DNA of 64,000 bases from positions 39,425 through 103,424 of the forward strand of contig CABYEA010000004.1 in the NCBI GenBank assembly GCA_902517895.1, read 5' to 3'. Position 1 is the stretch's first letter. Every line of letters starts with the position of its first letter. The notes under the pieces are model-generated. The model ran no database searches and was not told where the DNA came from. It saw only the letters and a list, made by a program, of their open reading frames with translations. Position numbers and translations under genes: made by a program. Positions 24,135 through 45,098 of the stretch are shown here, piece by piece. The DNA comes from an uncultured Bacteroidota bacterium (lineage in GTDB: Bacteria; Bacteroidota; Bacteroidia; Flavobacteriales; Flavobacteriaceae).

Positions 24135-24922
24135 ATAATTTTAATTTGATTATTTTTAATCCAACCCTCTTGACCATTTACTAATTTTATTTTTACCCAC
24201 TCATCACTAAAATTATTAATAATTCTAACTTTAGTTCCTAAATGCAAAGTAAGTAAATTCTTACTTCTTTCATTCGGATCAGCCTTAATTTCAATCTTAT
24301 TTGAAAAGATAATAGCATACTTTTCGAGGTAATTTTTTTCGTAAGCATTTAAGCTAATCCGTACCGTTATTAAAATGGTGATAATAATAATAAAAAGAGA
24401 GGCAAATGCAGTTTTTTTAACAATTGTTGTCTTAGAAAAGAAATATATTAGAAAAAACAAAAGAAACATAAAAGCAAATAATATCAGTGCAATACCCCAA
24501 GACGAATAGCTTAAAAGATTAGATGTTTTATTTAATTGTTCGTCAAAAAATGATTGTGGAACTACTGCGATATCATCTATGAGGGTATTTTTAACCATAT
24601 TCAAATTATTAATTACTTCATTGTCTGAAGAATCAAGCTTTAATGATTTTTCATAATACAAAATACTATTTGCAATATCATTTAACCTGTAGTAAGCATT
24701 TCCAATATTGAAATACAAATCTGGTGAATGAAAACCTGAATCTAAAATTTGTAAATACACCTGAATTGACTGTTCATATTTTGAATCATTATATAAGTTA
24801 TTAGCTTCAGAAAATTTTTCATTTACAACAGATTGTTCAGATTCTAATTGGCTAAAGCATGATATAGAACAAACCGTTAGGAACAAAAAAGTGATTACAA
24901 TATTTAAATATTTACTTTTCAT
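24131..24922 (-). CDS. BatE-like TPR + SH3 protein
   Basis: TPR region (DLYFNIGNAYYRLNDIANSILYYEKSLKLD), TM segments, SH3-like VRIINNFSDEWVKIKLVNGQEGWIKNNQIKII; position in Bat operon. Confidence 0.88.
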   Translation of the reverse strand: MKSKYLNIVITFLFLTVCSISCFSQLESEQSVVNEKFSEANNLYNDSKYEQSIQVYLQILDSGFHSPDLYFNIGNAYYRLNDIANSILYYEKSLKLDSSDNEVINNLNMVKNTLIDDIAVVPQSFFDEQLNKTSNLLSYSSWGIALILFAFMFLLFFLIYFFSKTTIVKKTAFASLFIIIITILITVRISLNAYEKNYLEKYAIIFSNKIEIKADPNERSKNLLTLHLGTKVRIINNFSDEWVKIKLVNGQEGWIKNNQIKII

Positions 24923-26681
24923 TTTTTACTTTTTCTAATTGATCAACAAATAACTTTGCATTTTCATAATCTTCACTCATAGCTTCAATATTTAAAGGGG
25001 TGTATCTGGCCAGTTGACAGTTTTCTAATACATTAAATAGCAAATCAATTAGATTTTTTTCCACCTTCATTTGTTGAAGTCTAGAACTTATGTATTTATT
25101 GTTTAGCTGAGAATTGTCAAGGTTTAATTTTGACTTTAAATAAGTTCTAAGAGCTTTGTCAATAGACTCATAAAATTTTTCTTTATCTCCGATTAACCCT
25201 TTTGACTGTACTAAAAGTTTTTGGGTTAATCCCTTCGCAATTTTTAATTTATCTACTTTTTTAGAATTATAAATCTTAAAAAACCTAAACAAGATTATAA
25301 TAATTATGCATATTAAAAAAGGAGATAAAAATAGTAGCCAATATGCAGTTGAATTGAAAAATATATTCTCTCCAATTTTTGAAAATTTTGTTTTAGTTTT
25401 GAATGAAGTAAATTGATTTTGAGCTAATTCAATTTTATTTGTCGTATTTAATTCGTTAGAGTCATCTTTTGAAGCTGAGGTTCTATTAAGACCCACAACA
25501 TCAATATATATTGGGTCTGAATAAATTGATATATACTCTTTAAATTTTGGATTAAAAAAAGAGAATTTAGTTTGAGGTATAGTATACTTTCCGGGCATGT
25601 TTGGCACAATAGTAAATTTATTATTTACCTTTCCTTTTATCCCAGCTGCCATGACCGAAACGTTTGAAATTTTTTCAGGTTCATAAACTTCAAGTGAAGA
25701 TGGTAAAGAGATTTTTGGATCCTCAAACAGGTTAAAATTTCCATTTCCTGAAATAATTAAACTCAATTGAAAGGCTTCATCAATTAACAATTCTTTTTTA
25801 TCTGATTTTATTTCAAAGTTAAAATCACCAACGGCCCCAGAGAAATCATTTGGTTTATTTTCAATAGGCAGTGGTTTAACATCAATAAATGAACTGCCTG
25901 ATGATACTGTTTTATTAACACTTGATGATATTAGATTGCCAAAAAAATCTCTTCTATTTGAAGGTACTTGCACGGAAATATCTAAAGTTAGTGGTTCAAT
26001 TTTTAATCTACCTTTCTTCTGTGGATATAGTAAAGTTCTTCGCAATACGACATATCTATACGGTTCACCTTTATATGTCCCATTTTGAACATTTAGAGAT
26101 TTAATATCTATGTTATTGCTCCAAAAATTGGCATACCTAGGTGCTTCTAATTCTCTCCAATTATCAACACCTGTATCAGGTGAAACATATAACTTATATG
26201 TAACGGAAACTGCCTCATTTATAAATGGGCTTTTATTGGATAATTCTGCAACTAAGTGAATCTTTTTATCAGCCAAATAGTTAGGATCATTTGGGTTTGT
26301 GGGCTTATCAACAGCTGAAGTTACTATTACTTTAACAGGAAGTGTTTTATAAATTTCTCCATCAACCTCAATCGAAGCTTGCCCAATTTCAAAAGAACCT
26401 TTTTCAATTGGGGATAAAAAATATGAATAGGTTTTAGAGTATGATCTTTTACCGTTTATCCAAGAATTTCTGATTGATTGACTTGGGCCTCCAACAATTC
26501 TAAAGTTTTCAAAAACTGGAGGTGTAAAATTATCACCGTCTTTGTCAACTGAAAATTCTACTTTCACTCTTTCATTTAAACCCAATTGATTCTTACTCAA
26601 TTTTGTAGTAAAATTAACTTGTGAAAATGCTGAAAAGCTAATCAGGAAAATAATTATATGTATAAATTTATTTCTAAACAT
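24912..26681 (-). CDS. BatD family oxygen-tolerance protein
   Basis: Signal peptide; VNFTTKLSKNQLGLNERVKVEFSVDKDGDNFTPPVFENFRIVGGPSQS is typical of BatD N-terminus; C-terminal TM. Confidence 0.93.
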   Translation of the reverse strand: MFRNKFIHIIIFLISFSAFSQVNFTTKLSKNQLGLNERVKVEFSVDKDGDNFTPPVFENFRIVGGPSQSIRNSWINGKRSYSKTYSYFLSPIEKGSFEIGQASIEVDGEIYKTLPVKVIVTSAVDKPTNPNDPNYLADKKIHLVAELSNKSPFINEAVSVTYKLYVSPDTGVDNWRELEAPRYANFWSNNIDIKSLNVQNGTYKGEPYRYVVLRRTLLYPQKKGRLKIEPLTLDISVQVPSNRRDFFGNLISSSVNKTVSSGSSFIDVKPLPIENKPNDFSGAVGDFNFEIKSDKKELLIDEAFQLSLIISGNGNFNLFEDPKISLPSSLEVYEPEKISNVSVMAAGIKGKVNNKFTIVPNMPGKYTIPQTKFSFFNPKFKEYISIYSDPIYIDVVGLNRTSASKDDSNELNTTNKIELAQNQFTSFKTKTKFSKIGENIFFNSTAYWLLFLSPFLICIIIIILFRFFKIYNSKKVDKLKIAKGLTQKLLVQSKGLIGDKEKFYESIDKALRTYLKSKLNLDNSQLNNKYISSRLQQMKVEKNLIDLLFNVLENCQLARYTPLNIEAMSEDYENAKLFVDQLEKVKNEK

Positions 26682-27505
26682 TACCAGTCTTTTTCAGAAA
26701 CAACTTTTGTGCCTTTTTGTTTCTTATCATTCACTTTTGCTTGAACTTTCTTTTCAGCATTTTCCATAGCCTTCAATAAATTTTTAATCTGTTCAGAAGA
26801 AAGTTTTGATTGTTGATTCTTATTTTGTTGAGGTTTCTCAGACTTATTATCGTCCTTGTCCTGTTCATTCTTACTTTGATCTTTTTTATTCTCATTCTGA
26901 TCATCTTCGTTCTCATTATCCTTATCCTTGTTCTGATCATCTTTGTTCTCATTATCCTTGTTCTGATCATCTTTATTCTCATTATCCTTGTTCTGATCAT
27001 CTTTATTCTCATTATCCTTGTTCTGATCATCTTTATTCTCATTATCCTTGTTCTGATCATCATTTTGCTGTTCCTCTTCACACATCTTAGCCAGTGCTAA
27101 ATTGTAACGAGTATCATTATCGCTAGGGTCATTTCTCAAAGCACTTTTATATGCTAATACTGCTTCAGAACACATTTCTTTTTTCATAAAAGAGTTGCCT
27201 AGATTGTGAAAAGATTTGTGTTTTTCAAATTTATTTTTAGCAAGTTTTGTTGATTCTATTTGTCTTGAAATTGCTTCATCATATAAACCTTCACTGTAAT
27301 ATTTATTTGATAAATTAAACGTGGCTCTTAAGTCACTTAGTGAATCATCAATAGCAACTCTAAAATTCTTTTCAGCTTCCTCAAAGTTGTTTTCAATAAA
27401 CTTATTTCCTTTGTTATAGAATCTAGCATAATTTTCAGACTGAGCATAAATATTTTGAGATGCTAGAATAGAAATAAAAAAACAAAAAAGTATATTATTT
27501 TTCAT
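26681..27505 (-). CDS. BatC-like TPR protein with Asn/Asp/Lys low-complexity repeat
   Basis: Signal peptide; TPR (DNDTRYNLALAKMCEEEQQ); tandem NKDNENKDDQ decapeptides. Confidence 0.88.
   Translation of the reverse strand: MKNNILFCFFISILASQNIYAQSENYARFYNKGNKFIENNFEEAEKNFRVAIDDSLSDLRATFNLSNKYYSEGLYDEAISRQIESTKLAKNKFEKHKSFHNLGNSFMKKEMCSEAVLAYKSALRNDPSDNDTRYNLALAKMCEEEQQNDDQNKDNENKDDQNKDNENKDDQNKDNENKDDQNKDNENKDDQNKDKDNENEDDQNENKKDQSKNEQDKDDNKSEKPQQNKNQQSKLSSEQIKNLLKAMENAEKKVQAKVNDKKQKGTKVVSEKDW
26895..27060. repeat. 30-bp coding tandem repeat in batC
   Basis: Four consecutive near-identical copies of ttctgatcatctttattctcattatccttg at 26931-27050 (first copy has one g/a change), a partial fifth, and a 36-bp variant at 26895-26930 with extra ttatcc. 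Confidence 0.95.
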
Positions 27506-28529
27506 TAAATAAATTTAAATTTTTCAGCCATATCGTTTTACCATCTCTCATGAAAATATCGACAACTATCAATAGAAATCCAATTAAAATAAACCACTGA
27601 AATTGGTCTTTAAACTCAGAAAATTTTTGAGTATCAAATTCTTTTTTTTCAGTATTTTCTAAAATTTCAATTACCTCATTTATCACATTTTCAGTTACTG
27701 AACCATCTATATATTGTCCTTTAGTTTTATCAGAAATATTTTGAAGATAATCTTTATTGAGTTTTGTAATAACCACCTCTCCATTGATGTCTTTTTTATA
27801 ACTCATTACGATTCCATTTTTTTTAATCGGAATAGGTGAACCCTTTTCTGTTCCAACACCAATCGAGTAAATGGTAATATTATTTTTTGCTGCTAGATCT
27901 GCCATTTCATATGATAAATCATTATGATCCTCTCCGTCTGATATAATAAATAATAACCGCTCTGTTGATTGGTCTTGATCAAAATAAGTAGAAGATAATC
28001 GGATAGCCTCATCAATGGCAGTCCCCTGAGATGAAAGCATATCAGTATTCATGTTTTGTAGAAACATTTTACCTGATGAATAGTCTGTGGTTAGGGGAAG
28101 CTGAGGAAATGCCTTTCCCGCATAGGCTACTATACCAATTCTATCACCACCCAGATTATTTATAACCTGGCCTACTAGCTGCTTAGATTTTTCTATTCTA
28201 TTTGGAGCTATGTCTTCAGCAAGCATACTTTTAGAAACATCAACTGCAAAAACTATATCAACTCCTAGCCTTTGAAAAATCTCAATCTTACTTCCAATTT
28301 TAGGATTAATCATCGCGATTATAAACAGTGAAATCCCGATTACAATAAAAAGTATTTTTATGATAGGTTTTAGGGTTGAAATGTTTGGACTTAATCTTTC
28401 CAAATTGGACTTTGAGAAAAATAATTTCTGAGTTTTAATTTTCCAAGCTCTGTCAAAAATGAACAATATGCTGATTAAAATAATCAACAAAAACAACCAA
28501 GACCATAATATGTTTTCTAATTCATACAT
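27495..28529 (-). CDS. BatB: VWA domain membrane protein
   Basis: GVDIVFAVDVSKSMLAEDIAPNRIEKSK MIDAS motif; N- and C-terminal TM. Confidence 0.95.
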   Translation of the reverse strand: MYELENILWSWLFLLIILISILFIFDRAWKIKTQKLFFSKSNLERLSPNISTLKPIIKILFIVIGISLFIIAMINPKIGSKIEIFQRLGVDIVFAVDVSKSMLAEDIAPNRIEKSKQLVGQVINNLGGDRIGIVAYAGKAFPQLPLTTDYSSGKMFLQNMNTDMLSSQGTAIDEAIRLSSTYFDQDQSTERLLFIISDGEDHNDLSYEMADLAAKNNITIYSIGVGTEKGSPIPIKKNGIVMSYKKDINGEVVITKLNKDYLQNISDKTKGQYIDGSVTENVINEVIEILENTEKKEFDTQKFSEFKDQFQWFILIGFLLIVVDIFMRDGKTIWLKNLNLFNEK

Positions 28530-29527
28530 TATATAAAACTTCTTAGTATTGTTAATTTCATAATCATCTCAAGCGCAATTAATATAATTGCAGGTAGAAG
28601 GAAGTATCTAAACTTCTCGTCAACTGAATAATATTTAAACTCCTCTATCTCTGTCTTTTCTAACTCGTCAATATCTGAATAGATTTCTTTTAGTCTTTCA
28701 TTATCTGTAGCTCTAAAATATTTTCCCCCAGTCATTTCAGAAATTTGAGTAAGTAGATTTTCATCAATTTCAACCTGAACATTTGCATAATTAAATTTTC
28801 CTTTTGCATCAATACCGACCGGAGATAATGCAAGACCATTTGTTCCCAAGCCGATGGAATATATCTTAATTTGAAATTCTTTTGCTAACTCAGCTGCTGT
28901 TATAGGATCAATAAATCCTGCGTTATTTACTCCATCTGTCAAAAGAATAATCACCTTGCTCTTAGCCTTACTGTCTTTTATCCTATTTACAGATGTTGCT
29001 AGGCCCATACCAATTGCAGTTCCACCTTCAATGATATTATTATATTTAATCTCCCTCAAGGATCTTATAGTTATATTCTTATCAGATGTAAGCGGTGTTT
29101 TTGTGTAACTTTCACCGGCATATTCAACCAGCCCTATTCTATCTGAAACTCTATTTTTAATAAACTCGTCGGCGACATTTTTTAATGCATCAAGCCTATT
29201 TGGTTTTAAATCTTTTGCCAGCATACTTGCAGAAACATCAATTGCCATTATTATATCGATACCGCTATTTGTTTTTACTCTAGTTGATGTATCAATTACT
29301 TGCGGTCTGGCTAGAGCAGTAATAATTAATATTAATGAAATTAATCTTAAATATTTGAATGTTAATTTTAGTTTTGAGTAGAAGTTTCCTGAATCACCAA
29401 AGGCTTTTGAATTAGAAAATTTAATCGAGTTGGTTAAATTATCTTTCTTTAGATAATTCCATATTACTATTAAAGGTATAACAGCCAATAAAATAAAGTA
29501 CTCTGGATTTAAAAATTCTAAATTCAT
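28529..29527 (-). CDS. BatA: VWA domain membrane protein
   Basis: GIDIIMAIDVSASMLAKDLKPNRLDALK MIDAS motif; TM segments. Confidence 0.95.
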   Translation of the reverse strand: MNLEFLNPEYFILLAVIPLIVIWNYLKKDNLTNSIKFSNSKAFGDSGNFYSKLKLTFKYLRLISLILIITALARPQVIDTSTRVKTNSGIDIIMAIDVSASMLAKDLKPNRLDALKNVADEFIKNRVSDRIGLVEYAGESYTKTPLTSDKNITIRSLREIKYNNIIEGGTAIGMGLATSVNRIKDSKAKSKVIILLTDGVNNAGFIDPITAAELAKEFQIKIYSIGLGTNGLALSPVGIDAKGKFNYANVQVEIDENLLTQISEMTGGKYFRATDNERLKEIYSDIDELEKTEIEEFKYYSVDEKFRYFLLPAIILIALEMIMKLTILRSFI

Positions 29528-31155
29528 TTTTTCTCTTCTTTTAATACTTCAATTGACTTAATAATTCTTTCTCTAATCTCATTCACATATCTTTTTTCAT
29601 GCGTTAAAAGAATTGCTGTTTTAAATCCTGTTTCCGTTAAAAAACCTATAACATTATAATTTCCAGGTTTATACTTTTTATCACTTATTTTAAAGTCTGA
29701 TGTTCCTGAAATAAGTAGACCTTTTCCTTTATTTTTTGTTTCGAAGTCCTCATACTTTACAAGCATATTTTGAAGTCCTCTACTTTCTAAATCATCCAAA
29801 CTTGACTCTAAAATTGATTGGAACTTTTGTGGTTCAATCTTAAATTCAGAGGAGTAGTTTGAGACAAAAAACTCAATAGATTCATTTGAATTCGAGAAAT
29901 AAAATTGAGATTCAATTTTATAATCATCATATAAAAAATCATTGTTGTTATTTAGTCTTACTAAAGCATCTGGAGTTTCTACAAATATTCCAGGAGCCCC
30001 ATATTCGGATTTTACCCAAATTTTATTTAATAATCTAAGATTTTTATTAAATGTTATCTTATCGATTGTGTATTGAAAACCGTTTATAAAACTTGAGAAA
30101 ATAAATAATAAGAAAATTAGAGAAGCTGCCAAAATTGAAACAATTTTTAGTCTTTCATTTCTCAACTTCTTCTCTGCTTGTTTTTGATAATTTAAATTTT
30201 TTAGTTTTTCTTCTTCACTAGGTTCAGGAAGCAATTCAGAAAAAAGTTTAACCTCTTCGTTAATTATATTAAGGTCATTTTGAATAACATTTTTTTCAGG
30301 AAGAAATTTTGCAAACTTTACCAAGTCAGCTCTTTTAAAAATATCTTCAATTCTATCAATAGATTTCCTGGAAATATTAAAAGATTTTATTTCACTTAAG
30401 TTGATTAGTTTTAGGATTAACTCACCTGTAGTACTTTCTAAAGCCTTTTCATATACTTCTTTTTCAAAAAAACTTCTTAGTGCATATGTTAATTCAGAAT
30501 AAAACAACTTAATATTTGATTTCGAATCAAGATTAATTTTTTCTAAATCACTCAATCTTTTCTTAATTAATTCAATAGGCCTTAATGCAGGCTTAATATT
30601 TATTAGTGGGTTAAAAAAATTAACCACTTGTACTCTGAAAAAAAGTAATATCAAGATTAAAAAAAGAGTGAATAAAATAATTGGATAATTATTCATTAAG
30701 CGAAGTCTAAAAACTTCGAATGTAGAAAATTTGTCAAATGGTGGTTTTATATCATACAGACCTTGCTTAGTAGTATCAACTTCAACTAAATTAACAGAGA
30801 TTTTTTTAGAATCGGTTGAAAATAATTTATCTCCAATTTGAATCTTTATTTTTGGAATGATGTAATTTCCTTCATCAAATGATGTAATACCATATTTCTT
30901 TGAAAACACAAAGCCGTCTTCATACTTAATTGTATCAATCTGAAATTCTGAAATTAATTCGAAAGGTGCAAATGAAGTTGAATCGGGAAAAATAATATTT
31001 TCTTCCTTTTCGGAATTGACATCAATTGTGTAAATAAGTTCTTTTCCTATTAATATTGAATCAGACTCAATAGATGCAGTTACATTTTGTGAATTGGATG
31101 TAATGCTTAGTAAAAAAACAAAACAAATAATTAAAATATTGAGAAATAGTTTCAT
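29524..31155 (-). CDS. Bat-operon membrane protein of unknown function
   Basis: Signal peptide, extracytoplasmic Ig-like N-terminal region, two TM segments; overlaps both neighbours by 4 nt. Confidence 0.8.
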   Translation of the reverse strand: MKLFLNILIICFVFLLSITSNSQNVTASIESDSILIGKELIYTIDVNSEKEENIIFPDSTSFAPFELISEFQIDTIKYEDGFVFSKKYGITSFDEGNYIIPKIKIQIGDKLFSTDSKKISVNLVEVDTTKQGLYDIKPPFDKFSTFEVFRLRLMNNYPIILFTLFLILILLFFRVQVVNFFNPLINIKPALRPIELIKKRLSDLEKINLDSKSNIKLFYSELTYALRSFFEKEVYEKALESTTGELILKLINLSEIKSFNISRKSIDRIEDIFKRADLVKFAKFLPEKNVIQNDLNIINEEVKLFSELLPEPSEEEKLKNLNYQKQAEKKLRNERLKIVSILAASLIFLLFIFSSFINGFQYTIDKITFNKNLRLLNKIWVKSEYGAPGIFVETPDALVRLNNNNDFLYDDYKIESQFYFSNSNESIEFFVSNYSSEFKIEPQKFQSILESSLDDLESRGLQNMLVKYEDFETKNKGKGLLISGTSDFKISDKKYKPGNYNVIGFLTETGFKTAILLTHEKRYVNEIRERIIKSIEVLKEEKK

Positions 31156-32015
31156 CGACTCTTGAAATATTTTAATAATTTGTTTTGATAATCATCCTGC
31201 GTATTACATTCAATTATACCCGATCCTGACCTTTTAAAATAGTTTACAAATTCACTCCTTTTGAAATTATAATATTCATTATATTTCTTTCTAATATTTT
31301 TTGAGTTGGTGTTCACCGTAATTCGTTTTCCGGTTTCATTATCATTTATATCAATAACACCTAAATTTGGAATAATTTCTTCAGTTTTATCATATATTCT
31401 AATTCCTGTTACATCATGTCTAGAAGAAAATATTTTAAGAGAATTTGAATAATCTTGAGAAATAAAATCAGAAATAATAAAAGCGATAGATCTGTTTTTT
31501 AAAATATTAGAGACAAACTTTAAAGGAACATTAATGTCGGTCTTTTTGCTCTTTGATTTAAATTCAAGTAACTCTCTTATAATCCTTAAGACATGAGATT
31601 TACCTTTTTTTGGAGGGATGTATAATTCAACATTATCAGAGAATAAAATTAGTCCAACTTTATCATTATTTTTTGTTGCTGAAAATGCAAGAGTAGCTGC
31701 TAGCTCTGTAACATACTCATTTTTAAACATCGAGTCAGATCCAAAAAAATTAGACCCAGAAATGTCAATTATTAACATCATTGTTAATTCTCTCTCTTCT
31801 TCAAATACTTTGATAAACGTGTCATTGTATCTAGCTGTTACATTCCAATCAATAGCCCTTACATCATCTCCAAATTGATATTGCCTAACCTCACTAAAGG
31901 CCATGCCTCTTCCTTTGAATGTTGACTGGTACTCTCCACCAAAGATATGATCAGATAATCTTTTGGTTTTGATTTCTATTTTTCTGACTTTTTTTAAGAG
32001 CTCTTTTGTATCCAT
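31152..32015 (-). CDS. DUF58 domain-containing protein
   Basis: STFKGRGMAFSEVRQYQFGDDVRAIDWNVTARYNDTFIKVFEEERELTMMLIIDISGS. Confidence 0.96.
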   Translation of the reverse strand: MDTKELLKKVRKIEIKTKRLSDHIFGGEYQSTFKGRGMAFSEVRQYQFGDDVRAIDWNVTARYNDTFIKVFEEERELTMMLIIDISGSNFFGSDSMFKNEYVTELAATLAFSATKNNDKVGLILFSDNVELYIPPKKGKSHVLRIIRELLEFKSKSKKTDINVPLKFVSNILKNRSIAFIISDFISQDYSNSLKIFSSRHDVTGIRIYDKTEEIIPNLGVIDINDNETGKRITVNTNSKNIRKKYNEYYNFKRSEFVNYFKRSGSGIIECNTQDDYQNKLLKYFKSR

Positions 32016-32025
32016 ATTTTGGAGT

Positions 32026-33021
32026 TTATGGAACTTCTATTTCATTTACAATTTTTGTGATAATATCAATCGATGACATATTTTCAGCTTCAGCTTCATA
32101 AGAAATTCCTATTCTATGTTGTAAAACATCAAATACTACTGCTCTAACATCATCAGGGATAACAAACCCTCTTCTATTTATAAATGCATAACATTTAGCT
32201 GCCAAAGCAAGATTAATACTGCCTCTTGGTGAAGCACCAAAAGATATTAATGGTTTTAGGTTTGATAAATTATATTTTTCAGGAAATCTAGTGGCAAAAA
32301 TTATATCAAGAATATATTTCTCAATTTTCTCATCCATGTATACTTCTCTCACTACTTTCTGGGCAGTAATAATTTTTTTAAGTGTGACAACAGACTTTAC
32401 TTTACTTACAGTATTCTCTAGATTCGTTCTCATTATCAACTTTTCATCCTCTAATTCTGGATAAGAAATAACTGTTTTTAACATGAATCTATCAACTTGT
32501 GCTTCTGGAAGTGGGTAAGTTCCCTCCTGATCAATGGGGTTTTGTGTAGCCATCACCAAAAATGGCTCATCTAACTTGAAAGTTTTTTCTCCAATTGTAA
32601 CTTGTTTTTCCTGCATTGCTTCTAATAATGCTGATTGAACTTTAGCAGGTGCTCTGTTTATCTCATCTGCAAGAACAAAATTTGCAAAAACAGGTCCTTT
32701 CTTGACTGAAAATTTTGATTGCTTAACATTATATAGTTGGGTACCAACAACATCTGCGGGTAATAAGTCAGGAGTAAACTGTATTCTACTAAAACTGCCA
32801 CTTATTGCCTTTGATAATGTATTTATAGCTAAAGTTTTAGCTAAACCAGGAACACCTTCAAGTAATATATGACCTTTTGCAAGCAGTCCAATAAGAAGTT
32901 TATCAATCATATCCTTCTGGCCTACAATAACTTTATTCATCTCTGATCTTAAAAGATCTACAAAGGCACTTTCTTTCTCTATTTTCTCGTTAATTTTCTT
33001 TATATCAACTTTATTTTCCAT
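32026..33021 (-). CDS. MoxR family AAA+ ATPase
   Basis: GHILLEGVPGLAKTLAINTLSKAI; ADEINRAPAKVQSALLEAMQEKQVTIG; ATQNPIDQEGTYPLPEAQVDRFM. Confidence 0.98.
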   Translation of the reverse strand: MENKVDIKKINEKIEKESAFVDLLRSEMNKVIVGQKDMIDKLLIGLLAKGHILLEGVPGLAKTLAINTLSKAISGSFSRIQFTPDLLPADVVGTQLYNVKQSKFSVKKGPVFANFVLADEINRAPAKVQSALLEAMQEKQVTIGEKTFKLDEPFLVMATQNPIDQEGTYPLPEAQVDRFMLKTVISYPELEDEKLIMRTNLENTVSKVKSVVTLKKIITAQKVVREVYMDEKIEKYILDIIFATRFPEKYNLSNLKPLISFGASPRGSINLALAAKCYAFINRRGFVIPDDVRAVVFDVLQHRIGISYEAEAENMSSIDIITKIVNEIEVP

Positions 33022-33084
33022 AAGTAAAAATTATTATAACTTTAAAATTGGTTTTGCAAAATGGCAAATCATCACAAATATCTC

Positions 33085-33129
33085 TGTTAACATTAGGTTA
33101 AAAAAACCATTTTTAACCTAATGTTAACA
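33085..33129. promoter_or_regulatory. Perfect 20-bp inverted repeat (5-nt spacer) in the moxR / SDR divergent intergenic region
   Basis: TGTTAACATTAGGTTAAAAA-aacca-TTTTTAACCTAATGTTAACA; arms are exact reverse complements. Confidence 0.95.
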
Positions 33130-33154: not shown

Positions 33155-33904
33155 TTGAAAACAATACTAATCACTGGAGCAACAAGCGGTATTGGATTAG
33201 CGGCTGCTAAAAAGTTAGCAAATGAAAAAAATCAACTGATTTTATGTGGAAGAAGACAACATAAATTAGATGAAATTTGCGAGGAACTTTCTAAAATTAT
33301 AAATGTCTTGCCTCTTCGTTTTGATGTTTCCGATAAAAAGGAAGTAAATAAAGTTTTAGAAAATGTTCCAGAGAAGTTTAGTTCTATTGATATTCTTATA
33401 AATAATGCTGGAAATGCTTATGGACTTGAAACAATTCAAGATGGTTCGCTTGAAGATTGGGATAACATGATTGATATCAATGTTAAAGGCTTGTTATATG
33501 TTTCGAGAGCAATTATTCCAGAAATGGTTGCGAGAAAAAGTGGACATATAATTAATATTGGTTCTCTTGCTGGTAGAGAAGTATATGAAAAAGGTAATAT
33601 TTACTGCTCGACAAAACATGCAGTCAATGCTATTTCAAAAGCTATGAGAATTGATCTGAATAAAACAGGAATTAAAGTTTCTGAAATCAATCCAGGGCTT
33701 GTAGAAACTGACTTTTCAAATGTTCGCTTTAAAGGAGATAATAATAGAGCAGAAAAGGTTTATCAAGGATATAAAGCACTTCAAGCAGATGATATTGCGG
33801 ATATTATAGAATTTGTAATAAATAGACCAGACCACGTTAATATTGCCGATATTTTAGTACTTCCTAAAGCACAAGCAACAAGCTCAATTATAAATAAGAA
33901 ATAG
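33155..33904 (+). CDS. SDR family NAD(P)-dependent oxidoreductase (TTG start)
   Basis: MKTILITGATSGIGLAAAKKLA; DILINNAGNAYG; Y-x3-K (YCSTK); INPGLVETDF. Confidence 0.95.
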   Translation: MKTILITGATSGIGLAAAKKLANEKNQLILCGRRQHKLDEICEELSKIINVLPLRFDVSDKKEVNKVLENVPEKFSSIDILINNAGNAYGLETIQDGSLEDWDNMIDINVKGLLYVSRAIIPEMVARKSGHIINIGSLAGREVYEKGNIYCSTKHAVNAISKAMRIDLNKTGIKVSEINPGLVETDFSNVRFKGDNNRAEKVYQGYKALQADDIADIIEFVINRPDHVNIADILVLPKAQATSSIINKK

Positions 33905-35849: not shown

Positions 35850-38800
35850 CTAATTCTTTATCACCCTTTTATTTATTATTCCTTCAGAAGAATAAATCTT
35901 TACAAAATACACTCCTTGAGCACTTCCTTCCAAAGAAATTTTATTGACTGAGGAATTGCCTCTATGTATCAACTGTCCTAAATTATTGTACAATTCAATT
36001 TTATTTATCTGTAAATAATCCGGGTATGATAAGTTAATAATATCATTAGTAGGATTTGGATAAATATTTATCTCACCCTCAAAATTAACTTCTTGATTTG
36101 ACAATGAGCCATCAACAATGGTTAATAAATTAGACTTCAGCGTTACAGTTGACACAGATGATCTTCCTGAATCACCACAATCATCGATAATAATTGCAAC
36201 ATAATACCTGTAATCATTTGCGTCAGTATCAGCATTTGTGTCATTAAAAGTAAACTGATTAGAAGGAATTGCATTCAATAATTCAAAATCAGCATTATTT
36301 ATTGATCTATAAATATAGAATGTGCTATATTCAACACCAAAATATGCTGACCAACTCAAATTGACAGATCCTCCAGCTGCTAAATTAGCTTGTAAAAGAG
36401 TGTTGTAATGCTCGGAGCTTAAATCAGAATTGATTCCACAAGCATCAACAGATCTAACTTTATATTTATATTGCTGCTGTTGGTTGTTGGACGTGTTATC
36501 TAGGAATGAATCTTCACTAGGAAGTACAAATCCGATAGACTCATACTCATTAACCACTGAAGTTTCTCTTAAAACTTCAAATGTTGCAACATTATAATTC
36601 CCAGCGGAGTTAAAGTAAATTCTATTCTTTGTAAAATCCTCTTCATCACTTGTTATATAGCAAATTTCAAGGTCATTATAAATTGGTATTTGACCAATTG
36701 TAAATGTTTCATTATATGTAAAGTATTCATCTGCAAAATCTAAAATATAAGTGCCAGGATTTAAATTTTCAATTGACTGATCTTGTGAAGAGAATCCATT
36801 AGGCCCAGTCCAATTAAATGTTAAGGTTCCAGCTGTTTGATTAATTTCAGAAATTTCAATGAAACCGTTGGCAAGTTCACCTTCACAATATGAGTCACTG
36901 GAAGAACTTACAATATTTATATCATTAACGTTTAAAACATTAATTATAAATTGTTGTTCAATCGAATCATTTTCATTGAAGGATCTTATCCTTACAGAAT
37001 ATTGATTTTGATCTTCAAAGTCAAAGTCAGTATTATTAATTAAAGAATTACCTTCAATTGTAAACAATTCATTATCGCTATCACCTGTTCCTTCAACAAA
37101 TTCATATGTGAACGAATCTCCAGGATCATTATCAATTGTAAATAGCTGACCAATAACATCTAATAAATTTTCATCAATGGTATTTGAAGATAAACTAACT
37201 GATGTTGGTGAATCATTCACAGGGTTTACATTAATTGTAATCTCGCCTGATGAACTGTCTTGATTTCCGTCATTTATATAGTAATTAAATACAGCATAGT
37301 TTTCTCCATATCCATTTTCAAATGGTTCATACAGAATAATATTTTGCGAATTAATTACTAAATCCCCTGGTGAGATAAGTGATGATATTGATTCACCGTC
37401 TTCTGTTTGATATAGGGTGCCTGTATTAGGCGTAGACGAAATAAAGAATTGCATTTGATCATTTTCTAAATCAAAACCTGCTAAAGTAATAGCAACCATT
37501 GTATCCTCATCGGTGTTCACAACTTGGTCTTGAACGACGGATGGGTCATTTAAATTATTAATTTGAATTATAATAACTTCATCATGGTTCAAACCTCCAG
37601 GGTCAGTTGTTCTGACTCTGATACTGGCCTGTTCTTGTGTTTCAAAATCAAAAGCTGAAGACACCATAAGCTCTGAACCATTTATAGTAAAGTTGGCATT
37701 ATCACTATCTCCCTCTCCTGCAACTAACTGATATGTAAATGTATCATCATCAACATCAGTTGACAGTAAATTATCTACTATAATATCAATGGTGTTTTCA
37801 TCAACACTATAATTTCCATCTACTAATAAAATTGCTGTTGGGGAATCATTAACCGCAGCCACATCAATTGAAAATGTTTTTGAGATATAGTCTATAGCAT
37901 CATTTTCGGTTCCACCATCATCGCTCAAAGTCACACTTATCTCTGCGGTTCCATATGCATTTAAAGTGGTGCTGTAAGAAAATGTTGCAATCGATTGACC
38001 TTGGTCATATTGAATATCCATTGATTCAAATAAATCACTATTGTTTGTTTCTACAACAAAAGATAGGTTTTGAATTTCAAGAATATCTCCATCGACAACA
38101 CCTGTTATGTAAAAACTTTGCTCACCCTCATCTTCATTGATATCTAAATTGTTGATGTTATCCATTCTAGGACGTGCGTTATTTGGAACGCCTAACTCGC
38201 TTTCATAGGCACCAATATCTACATTAGATCCAAGTGGTGCGGGCCTTGAGTTCCCTAAAATATCTGTTGATATTGGGTAATAACCGTATCCAATAGCGGG
38301 AGATGTGTTTTGAAGCGTAAAATCACTATTCTCATAATCTGTAAAATATAAATCAGTAAAGCTTTCTGGAGCTAATTGCCAAGTCGAATTACTTTGTGGA
38401 ACTACAAGTGGACTATCTGTAATTACTTGATTAAATTCAGGTGGTGATGTATAACCAGAACTATCTAATGGTGTCCCCATTATTATGGTATTTACATATC
38501 TGGCGCTATTAGACACACATGAAGCATAGATTTCCTGATGATTAATAATTGTACTATTATAAAAAGTTGCTTGAAGACCTAACGCACCGACAGAACAATT
38601 ATCCTGATGTAGAACTAACCTATTATTTACCAATAAACTATTATTCACAGTAACCGAAGAAATTCCTGTACCAATGGCTCTATCATCATAATCAGTAATA
38701 ATACAATCATTTATTGTAACATAATGCTCGCCATATGCCCAAATACCGTTAGTACCTCCAATATCTTGACTCGGATAAATATTAAATCCAGTGATTGAAG

Positions 38801-41800
38801 AATTGACAATTCCAATATTTGAACTAAATGATATGGTATATCCAGTTGCTGGAAGTGCAATTGAAGCTCCTTGTGGTTCTGTAGAAATAAAATTCAATCC
38901 CTTATTTAATATGGAAATCTGCTCGATGTATTCACCTGGGGAAACTAAAATATTATCACCCTCAATAGCATAATTTACTGCAGCTTGAATGGTTAGAAAA
39001 GGATTGTCCTCTGTACCAACCGTATCTTCGTCTGTTCCAGAATTGGACACGTAAATATTTGTATTATGAACGGTTTCAGCTAATGGGTTTTCAAAAGCCC
39101 CAATATCCACGTTTGAGCCTTCAGGATTTGGTCTTGAATTTCCAGAAAAATCGACTAAAGGAGTAGTGTAAGTAGTTGAATATAGCTCAACAGCGTTCAC
39201 TCCTCCGCCGATAGCCGGTGAATAGTTTGACAAATTAAAGTCATTATTGCTAAAATCATTGAATAAAATCTCACCCTCTGAATTATTTTCATAGTTTAAG
39301 AAATTAGTAATTTGATTTATAATTTGTGTTTCACCCTCTTTTAAATGTGAATTTGTAACTGTTAATAATCCATCATTTGTGAAGAATTGGCCTCCGTCAA
39401 TAATTGTATTTACAACAGCACTATTACCGTCAAAACGATTATTTAGTGAATTCCCTATAATATTTGAATTTATAATTATCGCATCAGTTACATTTAAGTC
39501 TCTTGAAGTTAAATTATCTCTAACAATGGTATTCTTAATCGTTGAATAATGTGTATCTCCATTATGCCAGAACTGAATAGTAATGTTTCCCTCATTATTA
39601 TAAAATTCACAGGCATTCATTTCAAATTCTTGGTTAAAGCCTGCCAATGTATGAACAGCGTTGTTATCCCTAAAAACTACATTGTTAAATTGCATCTTTC
39701 TGTTTGTATTTGTGTAGTATAGATAAACAGCAGCTGCATTTGTGGCTAAGTTATTTTCAATTATTAGATTTTCGAAATTTATTCCGATATTAATATTTGA
39801 GGTGCTGTGTAACCAGATTGCCGACGCAACTTCATATGATGCAGTCAGGCCATTAGTAATCGTGAATCCGCTGATTAAAATTGAAGACTCTTGTTCAGGC
39901 TGGTATGATAAACCAAGTCCATTAATATCAATAACAGAAATTCCGTTTGACCCACCATCAATAATTGTTGATGCAGCTGAGGTCGATGGATCTGGTGTAG
40001 TAATTGTTACATATTTGTCATCTAAAGAAATATTTTCAACATATGTTCCAGGATTTACCATAACTGTATCCAAATTTGATGCTGTATCAATTGCAGTCTG
40101 AATAATTTTAAAAGGATTGTCCTGTGATCCGGTAGCAGAAGAATCAGCTAGAACATTTGCGTCAACCCAATAAATACCGTCAGACACTACAGAGTTACCC
40201 GCAACTGAAAAACTGTAGTCAACACTTACCTCAGGGTACACTGTTTGGTAAAGATTATCAACTAGAAAAGCATGAACAGAATAATCTTGTCCGGCTGTAA
40301 CTGGTAAATTAATTTCTGTATCCTCAAATACACTAACTGGGTCTGATCCATTAACAGTGTATTGAATATGCCCATTACCTGGAATTAAATTAAACCCAGC
40401 AGCTGCACTATCCATATTTAGAGACACAGGATTCAATGTCATTGTAACCTCAGTTATTGAATTTGGAAATATGGCTCCGTTTGTAGAGGATTGTGAATAT
40501 GATAATTCAGGAAGAGTCATCTTTGCATAAGTGATCTGGTCAAAAACTGAGCTTACAGAATTATTATCATTGTCAAGCAGTTGATAAGATTCTTTGTAAA
40601 GACCAGCGCCAGGAAGATCAAAAAGGTCATTCAAATTATAATTTAAAGCGTCCGAGCCAGATCCAATAATATTGGGTCCGTGAGCATTAATAATTACTGT
40701 TTCAGATGTCACAGCAAGTTCATTTTCCTCCAGATTATAATTAGCTAAATCACTAATATCATTAACATCATTATAATCACCAGGATAATATGTGATTTGA
40801 TACGCTATTGAACCGTCAACTCCTAAATCAAAACCTTGAAGTATAAATGAGTGTAAAACATCATATTGACCATAGCTTAAAAAGTTACTAATTCCTGAGG
40901 AGGCAGTAACAATAAAATTAACATTTGATACGATTAATGTTATCTGATCTGATATTCCCAGAGGATTACCTTGATTATCCACCAAGTCAAATTTGATATA
41001 ATATTCATCACCAAGTTCAGTGGTAGTTGGTTCAACAAGTCCTAAATCGACTAACGCCTCTGAAGAATTATATATGTTTACTGTTGAGAAATCCCCATCA
41101 AATTCACCCGCTGTGGTTAAACTATTTCCTATAGTGTATTGAATATATCCATCTCCGGAACCATCTTCAGTAACAATAAAATCAGAAATTGTATATGTGA
41201 CTATTGCTTCGGTTGTATTAACAGGATATTCCGTTAAATCTTCAGGGGATGTTATTGAAATTGAAGGGGCATTTTCTACAGAAAAGTTAACCGAATCAGT
41301 TAATGGTGGAGATAACTGATTATAATTTGAATCCGTTAGACTTACTTGAACATTATAAGCCTGACCACTTTCAACATTAATACTAAAATCACCCACAAAT
41401 GAGTCAATTGGGTCAGCTCCGTTTACTGAGTATTGCATAAAGTCTGTGCCAAAATAACTGGTGAAATAAGATATTTCAATAGAATCGGTATTGTAATCAA
41501 AAACCTCCCCCTCGGAAGGGTTATTGATGCTTATCACATCATCCACATTATTACTGGTTAGTGTAATAAACCATCTGTTAGGTGAATCCCAAGAAGGATA
41601 CGTTGCTAAAATGATACTATTTTCATTAATTTCGATTAGATCATAAGTTAAACCTGCTCCATGAAAAAAGCCTAGATATCCATTTCCGGATAATGATATT
41701 TGTTCCAAACCGTCATTATCAGAGGATAAATTCCATGAAGACTCAATATTGTCTGAAGGGTAGTTTTCATACTCTAAATATTGATTTTGTCCTAAACCTT

Positions 41801-44800
41801 GATCACTACCAAAAGCTTCTAAAATAGGAGCGGCCTTTCCGTAAATATCTCCATTAGTAAAAATGGTCAATGATCCATCGGGATTGAAGTAATATACATC
41901 ATTGTACATTCCTAAACCTTCTTTTTCAAACGGCATAGCCATGTAATAATTTGGAAATGATTCATTTTCTCCACCAACACCAAAATGACCTTGTGTTTCT
42001 GCCTCCACTCTGAAAAAAGTGTTTTGTGAAATAAATTCTTGTAAAGTTGGTGTATATGGATTAACTAACAAATTTATAGCTACTATTTCATAACATGATT
42101 CATCGTTCGGAGATTGAACTCTAACATATATGGTGTCAGCTTCAGGCTGCTGATTGGTATATGGGCTTATGAGGAAGTTTATATTTTCCTCTGCATCTTG
42201 AACAGATACATGATATGAAATTGTATAAGATTCATTTAATTCAGCTGAAAGAATTGTATTTAAATCAAATTCAGCAAATCCATCATTATTATCGTCATCA
42301 ACTTCGATTATGTTGATATTACCAATAATCAAATCTTCATTTAAAGGACATGGATCAACATAGGTTTCAGGCATAATTACTACCCTACCTAAAGCTTCTT
42401 CATCATCCGGATTAGCCACAGGGCCAACAACTGTGAATCCGTACTGAACTAAGAAACCCTCAGGTAATTCATCAGCGTAAATTATAAAATTGCCAGGTTC
42501 AGAAATTTCAAATGAATATGCTCCATTAGTAATATCGGTAAAATTATTATTTGGGTCAAGTGCTCTTACAAAAGCTTTACATGTGTAGGATTCATCAAGA
42601 GTATATTCGTGAACAGAAACCGAAAAATGAATCGGCCTTTCATTAAATGCTGTATAGGACTCTACTTGAGTTATGCCTTCCATTATTGCATTTCCTGAAC
42701 CGTCTTCATTGACCCAATTGGAATCCGAGGCATCATAGGCGCTAAAATTTGGTTGAAGAATAATCTCGTTAGTTTGTGTGTCAATTGTTGTTTTTAGATC
42801 AGGTACTGACCATGTATTACCAAATGTAAAGGTTCCGTCTAACTGATATACCTGCATGTATCCAGTCCAAACATCGGATGGATCGGCATAAATAAATAAA
42901 GTTTCATCTCCATTGTCTTGCTGAAATTCACCTTGACCAACCTCAATATCATCAAAATAAAATGTTCCTGGGTTTTGATTTCCAAAATCTGGAAATATGA
43001 CTACAGTAGTGTAATCTAAATCTGGGGCTCCAGTGAAGTCATATGTTAGTATTTCCCAAGTATTAGAAACAGTTGTTAAAACATCAACCTCATGTGTATA
43101 GCCCTCAACATCACCTGCAGTTGTTTCTAGTTTGACTTTTACAACTTTGCCTGCTTCTGGACTATAAGATTTTATTCTTAGCTGATAATGTTGATCAAAG
43201 TTTATTGTTCCTTCTGCATCCACAGCTATCCCTGCCCAGGGCTCTGAGGACTCAGTTTTTACCATTTGTAAAACTCTTGTTGAGTAATTTATATCGGATA
43301 CATCGGGGTTATCAACTATTCCTATTTGATCTATATTTCCAAAAGGAGCTATATCCATATTCATACCTTCCTCCTCAAAATCATGAATTATATCAAACCC
43401 ATTGTCTGTGAATCCACATGCTTCACCTGAGCAATCTCCGAAACACGCAGTAACTGTTGTGTCCTCAGATGCACAAGGAAGTAATCTATCGCTGAATTCA
43501 CCAAATGCACAGAATTGACCTGCTAATTGTTCTTTAGTACCCCAGTCATTAGGGTCATTTGGACTATTTAAGAAAATGAAGGCTCCTCCTATGTTATTAG
43601 GTACCGCTTCAAAAGATCCAGTCCAAATACCATCACCGTCTTCATCGGACAAAGGAATTGCCATTGCACCCCCAAGCACTCCACCACCTGCGTAGATTCC
43701 TTCAGGACCTACATCAATTGAAGCTGTGTTAACTTCAAAAGTATATGTAATACTTTCAGCTGGGTCTTCTCCAGGACACTGATTCCAGTGATGTGAAGCA
43801 AGATCTTGATCAGCACCAGCAACAGTTAAAGCTCTGTTCCAATAGGATCCATCCCAAGATAAACAGTCTTTTTCACAGTTCCAGAATTCTTGATTTTCCC
43901 AACCACCTAATGTATATTTATATTTGTAATCTCCATCCTCTAATGGTAGTGTAAGAGACCATATTCCGTCACCATCATCATCAGTCATAGGATATAATCC
44001 TGGATTCCAGCTTTCACCACTACTTCCGTTATCACCGAAGTTTCCAACAACGTGAGGTATAGAATTTTCTAACAAACTTAATGATGTTGAAGGGTCGACA
44101 TTAAATGTGATATTTGGCGTAGGGGTTGGTGTATTTCCAGCTTCTACTGTATTTTCATAAGTACCAGTTGAGATCTTAATTTGATCTAAAACCATTTTAC
44201 TTCCAGCATTTTGAAATACTGGGGCAAATTGCATCATTTGAACAACAGCATTTAATAATCCAGCATCAGCGCCAGGTGTAGCTGTCATAGCTGGGAAACC
44301 ATTTGTGTTTGCCCAACCATCATCATTATACATTTTAAAACCCCATGCACTACCATCGCCTGATGAATAAGTTTCAGGTGAATCTATCCAAAATCTAATA
44401 GATCCATTATTTCCTCCACTATAATCAACAGTAACTCCAATGGTAAGATCTGTAAGAGTGTAACCTTGAGTTTGACCAAAGTGGCCAGCATACTTTAAGG
44501 TACCGTTTTGATTACCACCATTAATAATCATTGTACTAGCCTTAAGGGATCCACCATCACCGCTGGTATTTTCAGCGATTTGAAGACCAGTCAATCTCCA
44601 ATTTGTACCGGTACCTTGATTGGCATCCTTTAAAATAAAAGTTACTTTGTCTCCACTTCCAGGTGCTATAGTAATTTCTTTAAAAGACAATGAAAAATGA
44701 AATCTATTGTCTACTAAACCAGAACCAGCTGTCGGGTCACCCGTTGTTGGGCCTAGATGTAGATTATTTAAAATAAAATTAGACCACGCGTTAGCATTAG

Positions 44801-45098
44801 CAGAAGTCGTAGACATTGTAAAACTGTCGTCTAAATCTCCGCCTGTTTCGTCTTCGTTTACAAATGCATTATTTCCAGATCCACCAGCCTGTAGGTAGGT
44901 AAGATCAGGATTTGCAGCACTAGCAAAATCAGGGTGAATATCTCCAACCACTGAATTTTCTGCAAAGTCCCAAACTGCAATTACAGTTTCTTCGGCTTGC
45001 AAGTTAAATGAAATAGCAAGTGAAAACACGGCAGCAACAAAAAGGGATCTTATATTTCTAAATAAATTTGAGAAAATAAAACAAATTGAAGAGTTCAT
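35850..45098 (-). CDS. Giant (3082 aa) mosaic secreted protein: lectin-like N-terminus, two carbohydrate-binding-like domains, two parallel beta-helix domains, cadherin-like repeats, T9SS C-terminal sorting domain
   Basis: Signal peptide; VVGNFGDNG..NPGLYPMTDDDGDGIWSLTLPLEDGDYKYKYTLGGWENQEF; TGSQDNPFKIIQTAID..NPGTYVENI and TEDNPFLTIQAAVNYAIEGDNILVSPGEYIEQI beta-helices, each ending NSRP.PxGSNVDIGA[FY]E; VNDSPT cadherin-like repeats; CTD EINIYPNPTNDIINL...GVYFVKIYSSEGIINKRVIKN. Confidence 0.9.
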   Translation of the reverse strand: MNSSICFIFSNLFRNIRSLFVAAVFSLAISFNLQAEETVIAVWDFAENSVVGDIHPDFASAANPDLTYLQAGGSGNNAFVNEDETGGDLDDSFTMSTTSANANAWSNFILNNLHLGPTTGDPTAGSGLVDNRFHFSLSFKEITIAPGSGDKVTFILKDANQGTGTNWRLTGLQIAENTSGDGGSLKASTMIINGGNQNGTLKYAGHFGQTQGYTLTDLTIGVTVDYSGGNNGSIRFWIDSPETYSSGDGSAWGFKMYNDDGWANTNGFPAMTATPGADAGLLNAVVQMMQFAPVFQNAGSKMVLDQIKISTGTYENTVEAGNTPTPTPNITFNVDPSTSLSLLENSIPHVVGNFGDNGSSGESWNPGLYPMTDDDGDGIWSLTLPLEDGDYKYKYTLGGWENQEFWNCEKDCLSWDGSYWNRALTVAGADQDLASHHWNQCPGEDPAESITYTFEVNTASIDVGPEGIYAGGGVLGGAMAIPLSDEDGDGIWTGSFEAVPNNIGGAFIFLNSPNDPNDWGTKEQLAGQFCAFGEFSDRLLPCASEDTTVTACFGDCSGEACGFTDNGFDIIHDFEEEGMNMDIAPFGNIDQIGIVDNPDVSDINYSTRVLQMVKTESSEPWAGIAVDAEGTINFDQHYQLRIKSYSPEAGKVVKVKLETTAGDVEGYTHEVDVLTTVSNTWEILTYDFTGAPDLDYTTVVIFPDFGNQNPGTFYFDDIEVGQGEFQQDNGDETLFIYADPSDVWTGYMQVYQLDGTFTFGNTWSVPDLKTTIDTQTNEIILQPNFSAYDASDSNWVNEDGSGNAIMEGITQVESYTAFNERPIHFSVSVHEYTLDESYTCKAFVRALDPNNNFTDITNGAYSFEISEPGNFIIYADELPEGFLVQYGFTVVGPVANPDDEEALGRVVIMPETYVDPCPLNEDLIIGNINIIEVDDDNNDGFAEFDLNTILSAELNESYTISYHVSVQDAEENINFLISPYTNQQPEADTIYVRVQSPNDESCYEIVAINLLVNPYTPTLQEFISQNTFFRVEAETQGHFGVGGENESFPNYYMAMPFEKEGLGMYNDVYYFNPDGSLTIFTNGDIYGKAAPILEAFGSDQGLGQNQYLEYENYPSDNIESSWNLSSDNDGLEQISLSGNGYLGFFHGAGLTYDLIEINENSIILATYPSWDSPNRWFITLTSNNVDDVISINNPSEGEVFDYNTDSIEISYFTSYFGTDFMQYSVNGADPIDSFVGDFSINVESGQAYNVQVSLTDSNYNQLSPPLTDSVNFSVENAPSISITSPEDLTEYPVNTTEAIVTYTISDFIVTEDGSGDGYIQYTIGNSLTTAGEFDGDFSTVNIYNSSEALVDLGLVEPTTTELGDEYYIKFDLVDNQGNPLGISDQITLIVSNVNFIVTASSGISNFLSYGQYDVLHSFILQGFDLGVDGSIAYQITYYPGDYNDVNDISDLANYNLEENELAVTSETVIINAHGPNIIGSGSDALNYNLNDLFDLPGAGLYKESYQLLDNDNNSVSSVFDQITYAKMTLPELSYSQSSTNGAIFPNSITEVTMTLNPVSLNMDSAAAGFNLIPGNGHIQYTVNGSDPVSVFEDTEINLPVTAGQDYSVHAFLVDNLYQTVYPEVSVDYSFSVAGNSVVSDGIYWVDANVLADSSATGSQDNPFKIIQTAIDTASNLDTVMVNPGTYVENISLDDKYVTITTPDPSTSAASTIIDGGSNGISVIDINGLGLSYQPEQESSILISGFTITNGLTASYEVASAIWLHSTSNINIGINFENLIIENNLATNAAAVYLYYTNTNRKMQFNNVVFRDNNAVHTLAGFNQEFEMNACEFYNNEGNITIQFWHNGDTHYSTIKNTIVRDNLTSRDLNVTDAIIINSNIIGNSLNNRFDGNSAVVNTIIDGGQFFTNDGLLTVTNSHLKEGETQIINQITNFLNYENNSEGEILFNDFSNNDFNLSNYSPAIGGGVNAVELYSTTYTTPLVDFSGNSRPNPEGSNVDIGAFENPLAETVHNTNIYVSNSGTDEDTVGTEDNPFLTIQAAVNYAIEGDNILVSPGEYIEQISILNKGLNFISTEPQGASIALPATGYTISFSSNIGIVNSSITGFNIYPSQDIGGTNGIWAYGEHYVTINDCIITDYDDRAIGTGISSVTVNNSLLVNNRLVLHQDNCSVGALGLQATFYNSTIINHQEIYASCVSNSARYVNTIIMGTPLDSSGYTSPPEFNQVITDSPLVVPQSNSTWQLAPESFTDLYFTDYENSDFTLQNTSPAIGYGYYPISTDILGNSRPAPLGSNVDIGAYESELGVPNNARPRMDNINNLDINEDEGEQSFYITGVVDGDILEIQNLSFVVETNNSDLFESMDIQYDQGQSIATFSYSTTLNAYGTAEISVTLSDDGGTENDAIDYISKTFSIDVAAVNDSPTAILLVDGNYSVDENTIDIIVDNLLSTDVDDDTFTYQLVAGEGDSDNANFTINGSELMVSSAFDFETQEQASIRVRTTDPGGLNHDEVIIIQINNLNDPSVVQDQVVNTDEDTMVAITLAGFDLENDQMQFFISSTPNTGTLYQTEDGESISSLISPGDLVINSQNIILYEPFENGYGENYAVFNYYINDGNQDSSSGEITINVNPVNDSPTSVSLSSNTIDENLLDVIGQLFTIDNDPGDSFTYEFVEGTGDSDNELFTIEGNSLINNTDFDFEDQNQYSVRIRSFNENDSIEQQFIINVLNVNDINIVSSSSDSYCEGELANGFIEISEINQTAGTLTFNWTGPNGFSSQDQSIENLNPGTYILDFADEYFTYNETFTIGQIPIYNDLEICYITSDEEDFTKNRIYFNSAGNYNVATFEVLRETSVVNEYESIGFVLPSEDSFLDNTSNNQQQQYKYKVRSVDACGINSDLSSEHYNTLLQANLAAGGSVNLSWSAYFGVEYSTFYIYRSINNADFELLNAIPSNQFTFNDTNADTDANDYRYYVAIIIDDCGDSGRSSVSTVTLKSNLLTIVDGSLSNQEVNFEGEINIYPNPTNDIINLSYPDYLQINKIELYNNLGQLIHRGNSSVNKISLEGSAQGVYFVKIYSSEGIINKRVIKN

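Follow-up and report, generated by a model that had tools for sequence, protein, structure and literature searches.

The perfect palindrome at positions 33,085–33,129 of the window, by which we mean the whole stretch of 64,000 nucleotides analyzed here, is very probably a doubled, head-to-head site for the stress-sensing OmpR-family regulator RprY, with the moxR-proximal arm activating the moxR-bat stress operon. We infer the binding of RprY in this genus, the activating sense of that binding, and the effect of the second arm. The palindrome separates two divergent gene starts, those of moxR (33,021, minus strand) and an SDR gene (TTG codon at 33,155, plus strand). moxR (32,026–33,021, minus strand) encodes an AAA+ ATPase and is the first gene of the presumably controlled operon, the remainder of which (24,912–32,015, minus strand) encodes a DUF58 protein, a 543-residue protein without a Pfam match, a BatA-type VWA protein, a second VWA protein, a TPR protein, and BatD. 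The YdfG-like SDR gene (33,155–33,904, plus strand) is probably a bystander; its apparent TTG start is kept across the genus (TTGAAAAC). In addition, the TPR protein of the Bat operon (26,681–27,505) contains tandem acidic DQNKDNENKD repeats, and positions 35,850–45,098 on the minus strand encode a secreted multi-domain protein of 3,082 residues.

The arms of the palindrome (33,085–33,104 and 33,110–33,129) are complementary at 20 of 20 positions when recomputed, in agreement with the 20-5-20 palindrome described in the first-pass annotation, and the 64-kb window contains no longer perfect inverted repeat. Each arm consists of a 17-bp box, TTAACC-N5-TTAACA, in which the TTAAC-type half-sites recur with an 11-bp period, and two inverted copies of this box make up the palindrome. 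The moxR-proximal box (TTTTTAACCTAATGTTAACA, 33,085–33,104, minus strand) has its half-sites at 33,101–33,096 (TTAACC) and 33,090–33,085 (TTAACA), and the distal inverted box (TTTTTAACCTAATGTTAACA, 33,110–33,129, plus strand) has them at 33,113–33,118 (TTAACC) and 33,124–33,129 (TTAACA). The spacer between the boxes (33,105–33,109) is variable, being 5 bp here and 6 bp in other species.

A version of the palindrome occurs at the same place upstream of moxR in 14 further species of the genus, and each of the 15 genus species whose moxR locus could be read has the distal inverted copy. Alignment of 12 distinct versions shows invariant half-sites (TGTTAA and GGTTAA in the left arm, TTAACC and TTAACA in the right arm); what varies is the central spacer and the 5 bp that separate the half-sites of an arm. 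The earlier description of the element as an array of GTTAA half-sites is thus borne out, as relatives keep TGTTAA and GGTTAA in both arms while the intervening 5 bp vary. Family-wide (family counts refer to group f1, which is taken to be Flavobacteriaceae), the proximal arm alone is found upstream of moxR, as TTTTTAACCAATTATTAACA or near variants, in almost every sampled genus. In those of the searched genomes that contain the exact 20-mer, it has a single copy, which lies at moxR. The other family genera that have a strict box yielded three weak candidates for a second arm but no strong one, and therefore the simplest reading is that this genus gained the second arm. The proximal box would then be the ancestral, family-wide copy and the distal box the genus-specific one, such that the whole palindrome is, as judged by this comparison, genus-specific and the ancestral site consisted of one arm only. 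No clear moxR box was found in three other families of the order (f2, f10, and f14). Overall, the conservation of the box upstream of moxR in relatives, at an orthologous position in 15 species, supports the original proposal of an operator for the moxR-DUF58-bat operon.

The geometry between box and promoter is also conserved. A conserved TTTGC at 33,056–33,060 on the minus strand, probably the -33 element of moxR, is separated from the proximal box by exactly 24 bp. Of 13 family sequences tested, 12 have this distance and the remaining one (L028) has no such motif there, and the tabulated genus sequences agree with the 12; in a second family sample, TTTGC or ATTGC stands at 24 bp in most sequences and was not found in some. 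TTTGC is more likely the -33 element, though this is not certain; its assignment as a -7 element was dropped, because roughly half of the other genera have TAnnTTyG or a close match 20–21 nt after TTTG, an arrangement that fits the -33/-7 promoters of Bacteroidetes. At the locus itself, a weak and uncertain -7 candidate (TAATTTTT, 33,026–33,033, minus strand) lies 23 nt after TTTG. The near-consensus -7 element initially placed beside the arm (GATATTTG, 33,082–33,075, minus strand) can be read in the sequence, but relatives within the genus do not retain it; the element that they conserve is TTTGC (33,060–33,056 in the window). With these assignments, the box would lie ~60–75 bp before the transcription start, which is a usual position of an activator.

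The distal arm might instead be a separate RprY site for the SDR gene, in which case the palindrome would co-regulate both genes. This arrangement is unlikely, even though a divergent SDR neighbor is present in 13 of 15 genus species examined. The distal arm is kept beside three different neighbors, namely the SDR gene, another divergent gene (L018), and a tandem aldehyde dehydrogenase gene (L021), the SDR gene being missing beside the palindrome in the latter two; therefore, the distal arm would serve moxR and not the SDR gene. Moreover, there is no TTTGC at the right distance toward the SDR gene, whose start codon occupies that place.

As for the protein that binds the box, the 11-bp TTAAC repeat suggests an OmpR-family response regulator, and the tested genus genomes encode two kinds only of this family, one PhoB-like and the other RprY-like. 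The best NCBIfam match of the latter is RprY, at 281 bits, under the model cut-off of 370. The partner kinase of RprY would be RprX (the pair called PhoP/PhoR in Riemerella). With a weight matrix trained on moxR boxes only, 17 of 20 genomes gave a box in front of rprX (p<0.05), in most cases 34–40 bp from the start codon and in one orientation, the rprX box being degenerate in this genus (p 0.01–0.05). Furthermore, RprY and the moxR box tend to occur together. RprY is present in 197 of 201 family genomes, and the three near-complete family genomes without it (G078, G218, and G260) all possess moxR and all lack the moxR box. A strong moxR box was found in 23 of the 26 RprY-positive family genomes examined, the other three having no clear box (Fisher p = 0.0025 for co-occurrence, pooled with the first sample). 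About two independent losses of RprY are involved, as G218 and G260 look related. Order-wide, the clade-level co-occurrence of RprY and box reaches only p = 0.05, so the argument from co-occurrence rests on the comparison within the family. Some 85 bp upstream of moxR, G218 and G260 (L207 and L212) share a different inverted repeat, TTGTAAATTGGTACACAA / TTGTATTTTGGTACACAA, which gives the impression that RprY has been replaced there by another regulator.

rprXY was not found in the organism's own genome assembly, which is 68% complete, and this incompleteness would explain the result. RprX was found in 14 of 20 other genus genomes, and the RprY of congeners has a recognition helix, RSMDVYIAKLRK, identical to that of the Riemerella regulator.

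For the kinase/regulator pair PhoR/PhoP of the duck pathogen Riemerella anatipestifer, DAP-seq, EMSA, and RNA-seq data have been published (PMC9603813, 2022). The PhoP motif has the core TTTAACA, EMSA revealed that PhoP binds ahead of its own operon as well as ahead of moxR, and Bat genes were down in the deletion mutants (PMC9603813). Both Riemerella papers use the name PhoP, RprY being unmentioned in PMC5399024. The published qPCR primers for the kinase RS09735 and the regulator RS09740 (PMC5399024) have exact matches in L191 of R. anatipestifer CCUG25054, where both forward primers match and the reverse primers do not. The regulator encoded in L191 shares 57% identity with the RprY of the genus, as against 33% with the PhoB-like regulator of the genus, and its recognition helix is the same as in RprY; the primer match, the identities, and the identical helix so identify Riemerella PhoP, on sequence grounds, as the RprY ortholog. 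The exact 20-base R. anatipestifer kinase primer also occurs in SKFV01000029.1 (L190), a record titled as a Pseudomonas MAG, possibly by chance or through misbinning. The R. anatipestifer moxR upstream region carries TTTAACAAACTTTAACA, with candidate half-sites at a 10-bp period, and we take this to be the site bound by PhoP. The first-pass annotation knew of no described regulator of Bat operons with such a site; this statement no longer holds, as R. anatipestifer PhoP, the RprY ortholog, binds upstream of moxR and controls Bat (PMC9603813).

The two systems have in common TTTAACA half-sites upstream of moxR and, as far as congeners show, an OmpR-family regulator with the RprY recognition helix (RAYM_RS09740; PMC9603813, PMC5399024), and they would also be alike in autoregulation, Bat dependence, and overlapping classes of target genes. 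However, there are also differences: R. anatipestifer has a single candidate box with a 10-bp period, whereas the palindrome described here comprises two inverted boxes with an 11-bp period and a fixed distance of 24 bp to TTTGC. RprY of Porphyromonas gingivalis likewise belongs to the RprY family, regulates stress genes, and binds to its own promoter (PMC3646045), but it has been described mainly as repressing chaperone and oxidative-stress genes (PMC3646045). The text of PMC3646045 mentions neither a binding motif nor a link to moxR/Bat, and the P. gingivalis RprY papers gave no motif. RprXY has been reported to be essential in Bacteroides fragilis (PMC4072883).

Another regulator of the OmpR/PhoB type, such as the PhoB-like one of the genus, could also be considered as the binder, the site then being a Pho box. 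The 11-bp direct TTAAC repeat does recall the PhoB/PhoP boxes known from this regulator family, and a PhoB-like regulator is encoded in G000. The PhoP and WalR boxes of Bacillus subtilis, for instance, consist of direct TTAACA-like hexamers ~11 bp apart that are bound by an OmpR-family dimer; they are similar in the hexamer repeat, but the regulons are unrelated. Against a Pho box, none of the 10 upstream regions of other OmpR-type regulators scanned with the same matrix carries the box, there are no pst/pho genes at any box whose surroundings were examined, loss of the box goes with loss of RprY, and the binder in Riemerella is the RprY ortholog. We therefore consider a Pho box improbable and RprY the preferred binder.

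It is still less probable that the palindrome acts as a paired structure, that is, as an RNA hairpin or DNA cruciform that would, for example, block read-through between the divergent units. The perfect 20-bp stem, the strong predicted fold (-23.4 kcal/mol with RNA parameters; z = -7.9 vs dinucleotide shuffles), and a terminator-like pattern match on the plus strand would be in keeping with such a role. However, pairing is perfect in only 2 of the 12 distinct versions (here and in L014), 1–3 of 20 positions differing in the other tabulated versions; because the arms thus differ at 0–3 of 20 positions, pairing is not what is conserved, and the perfect pairing of the arms is incidental. It is the half-sites that are invariant, variation in the intervening 5 bp often breaks pairing, one clear arm only is present outside the genus, and the palindrome lies where two divergent genes begin, on the upstream side of the promoter element that is conserved at moxR. 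An intrinsic terminator was rejected, in line with the initial view that divergent flanking genes make this role unlikely, as both genes start here and the stem is not GC-rich (4 of 20 pairs are G-C). A DtxR/IdeR site, whose box TTAGGTTA...TAACCTAA resembles, was also rejected from the sequence alone, the half-sites being ~10 bp too far apart and TTAGG changing to TTTGG in relatives.

The arm occurs at a single locus in the window and in the organism's own genome (1.26 Mb, 68% complete), where other matches have three mismatches each, the same level as in a reversed control; the exact 45-bp palindrome was found in 0 of 99 other genomes searched. The small palindromic mobile remnant or dispersed repeat once offered as an alternative, for which the perfect symmetry within an AT-rich spacer might speak, can be practically dismissed, given one copy per genome at a fixed, orthologous position in 15 species and no dispersed copies.

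The box is not confined to moxR. The pattern TTTAAC-N6-TTAACA has 71 matches in 12 genus genomes vs 22 for the reversed control, and the moxR pair accounts for 24 of these 71 matches. Recurrent conserved boxes in the genus lie at the genes for LptD/N-acetylmuramoyl-L-alanine amidase, where the box overlaps the annotated amidase start, at those for an HtrA/Do protease with dapF, at a MacB-like ABC operon, and at a gene for a GLPGLI protein. Direct targets of Riemerella PhoP include LptD and the adjacent amidase, a Do protease, ABC transporters, and GLPGLI proteins (PMC9603813); this overlap is one of gene names, and several of those genes are repressed, not activated, in Riemerella. Two unrelated genes for secreted proteins that lie 5 kb apart in G011 (L124:2051 and L124:7196) have near-identical promoter regions with the same box, which suggests duplicated regulatory DNA, and further boxes occur at serC/LuxC (L121) and in L127.

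Mechanistically, one arm, with its two TTAAC-type half-sites 11 bp apart, would provide room for one tandem RprY dimer. A dimer on the proximal arm would sit upstream of RNA polymerase, the box ending 24 bp before TTTGC, and would activate moxR-bat, and a second dimer on the inverted arm, ~28 bp away, may strengthen or sharpen this activation. We only tentatively advance a more far-reaching proposal, which we consider possible rather than probable: two RprY dimers on inverted boxes ~28 bp apart would cooperate as a sharp moxR-bat switch in a small-genome lineage, constituting a new OmpR-family operator architecture, and RprY-Bat would be an ancestral envelope-stress circuit of Flavobacteriales, the site vanishing with the regulator.

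The regulator-site pair at moxR-bat is already known from its description in one bacterium, Riemerella; what appear to be new are its near-universal conservation in the family with a rigid promoter geometry and its doubling in this genus. Little is known about the control of the widespread MoxR-Bat operons, and the present comparison ties the Bat operon to RprXY across almost the whole family. Finally, it provides a predictive site, TTAACC-N5-TTAACA-N24-TTTGC, together with a likely envelope-stress regulon, both of which are testable in laboratory flavobacteria.
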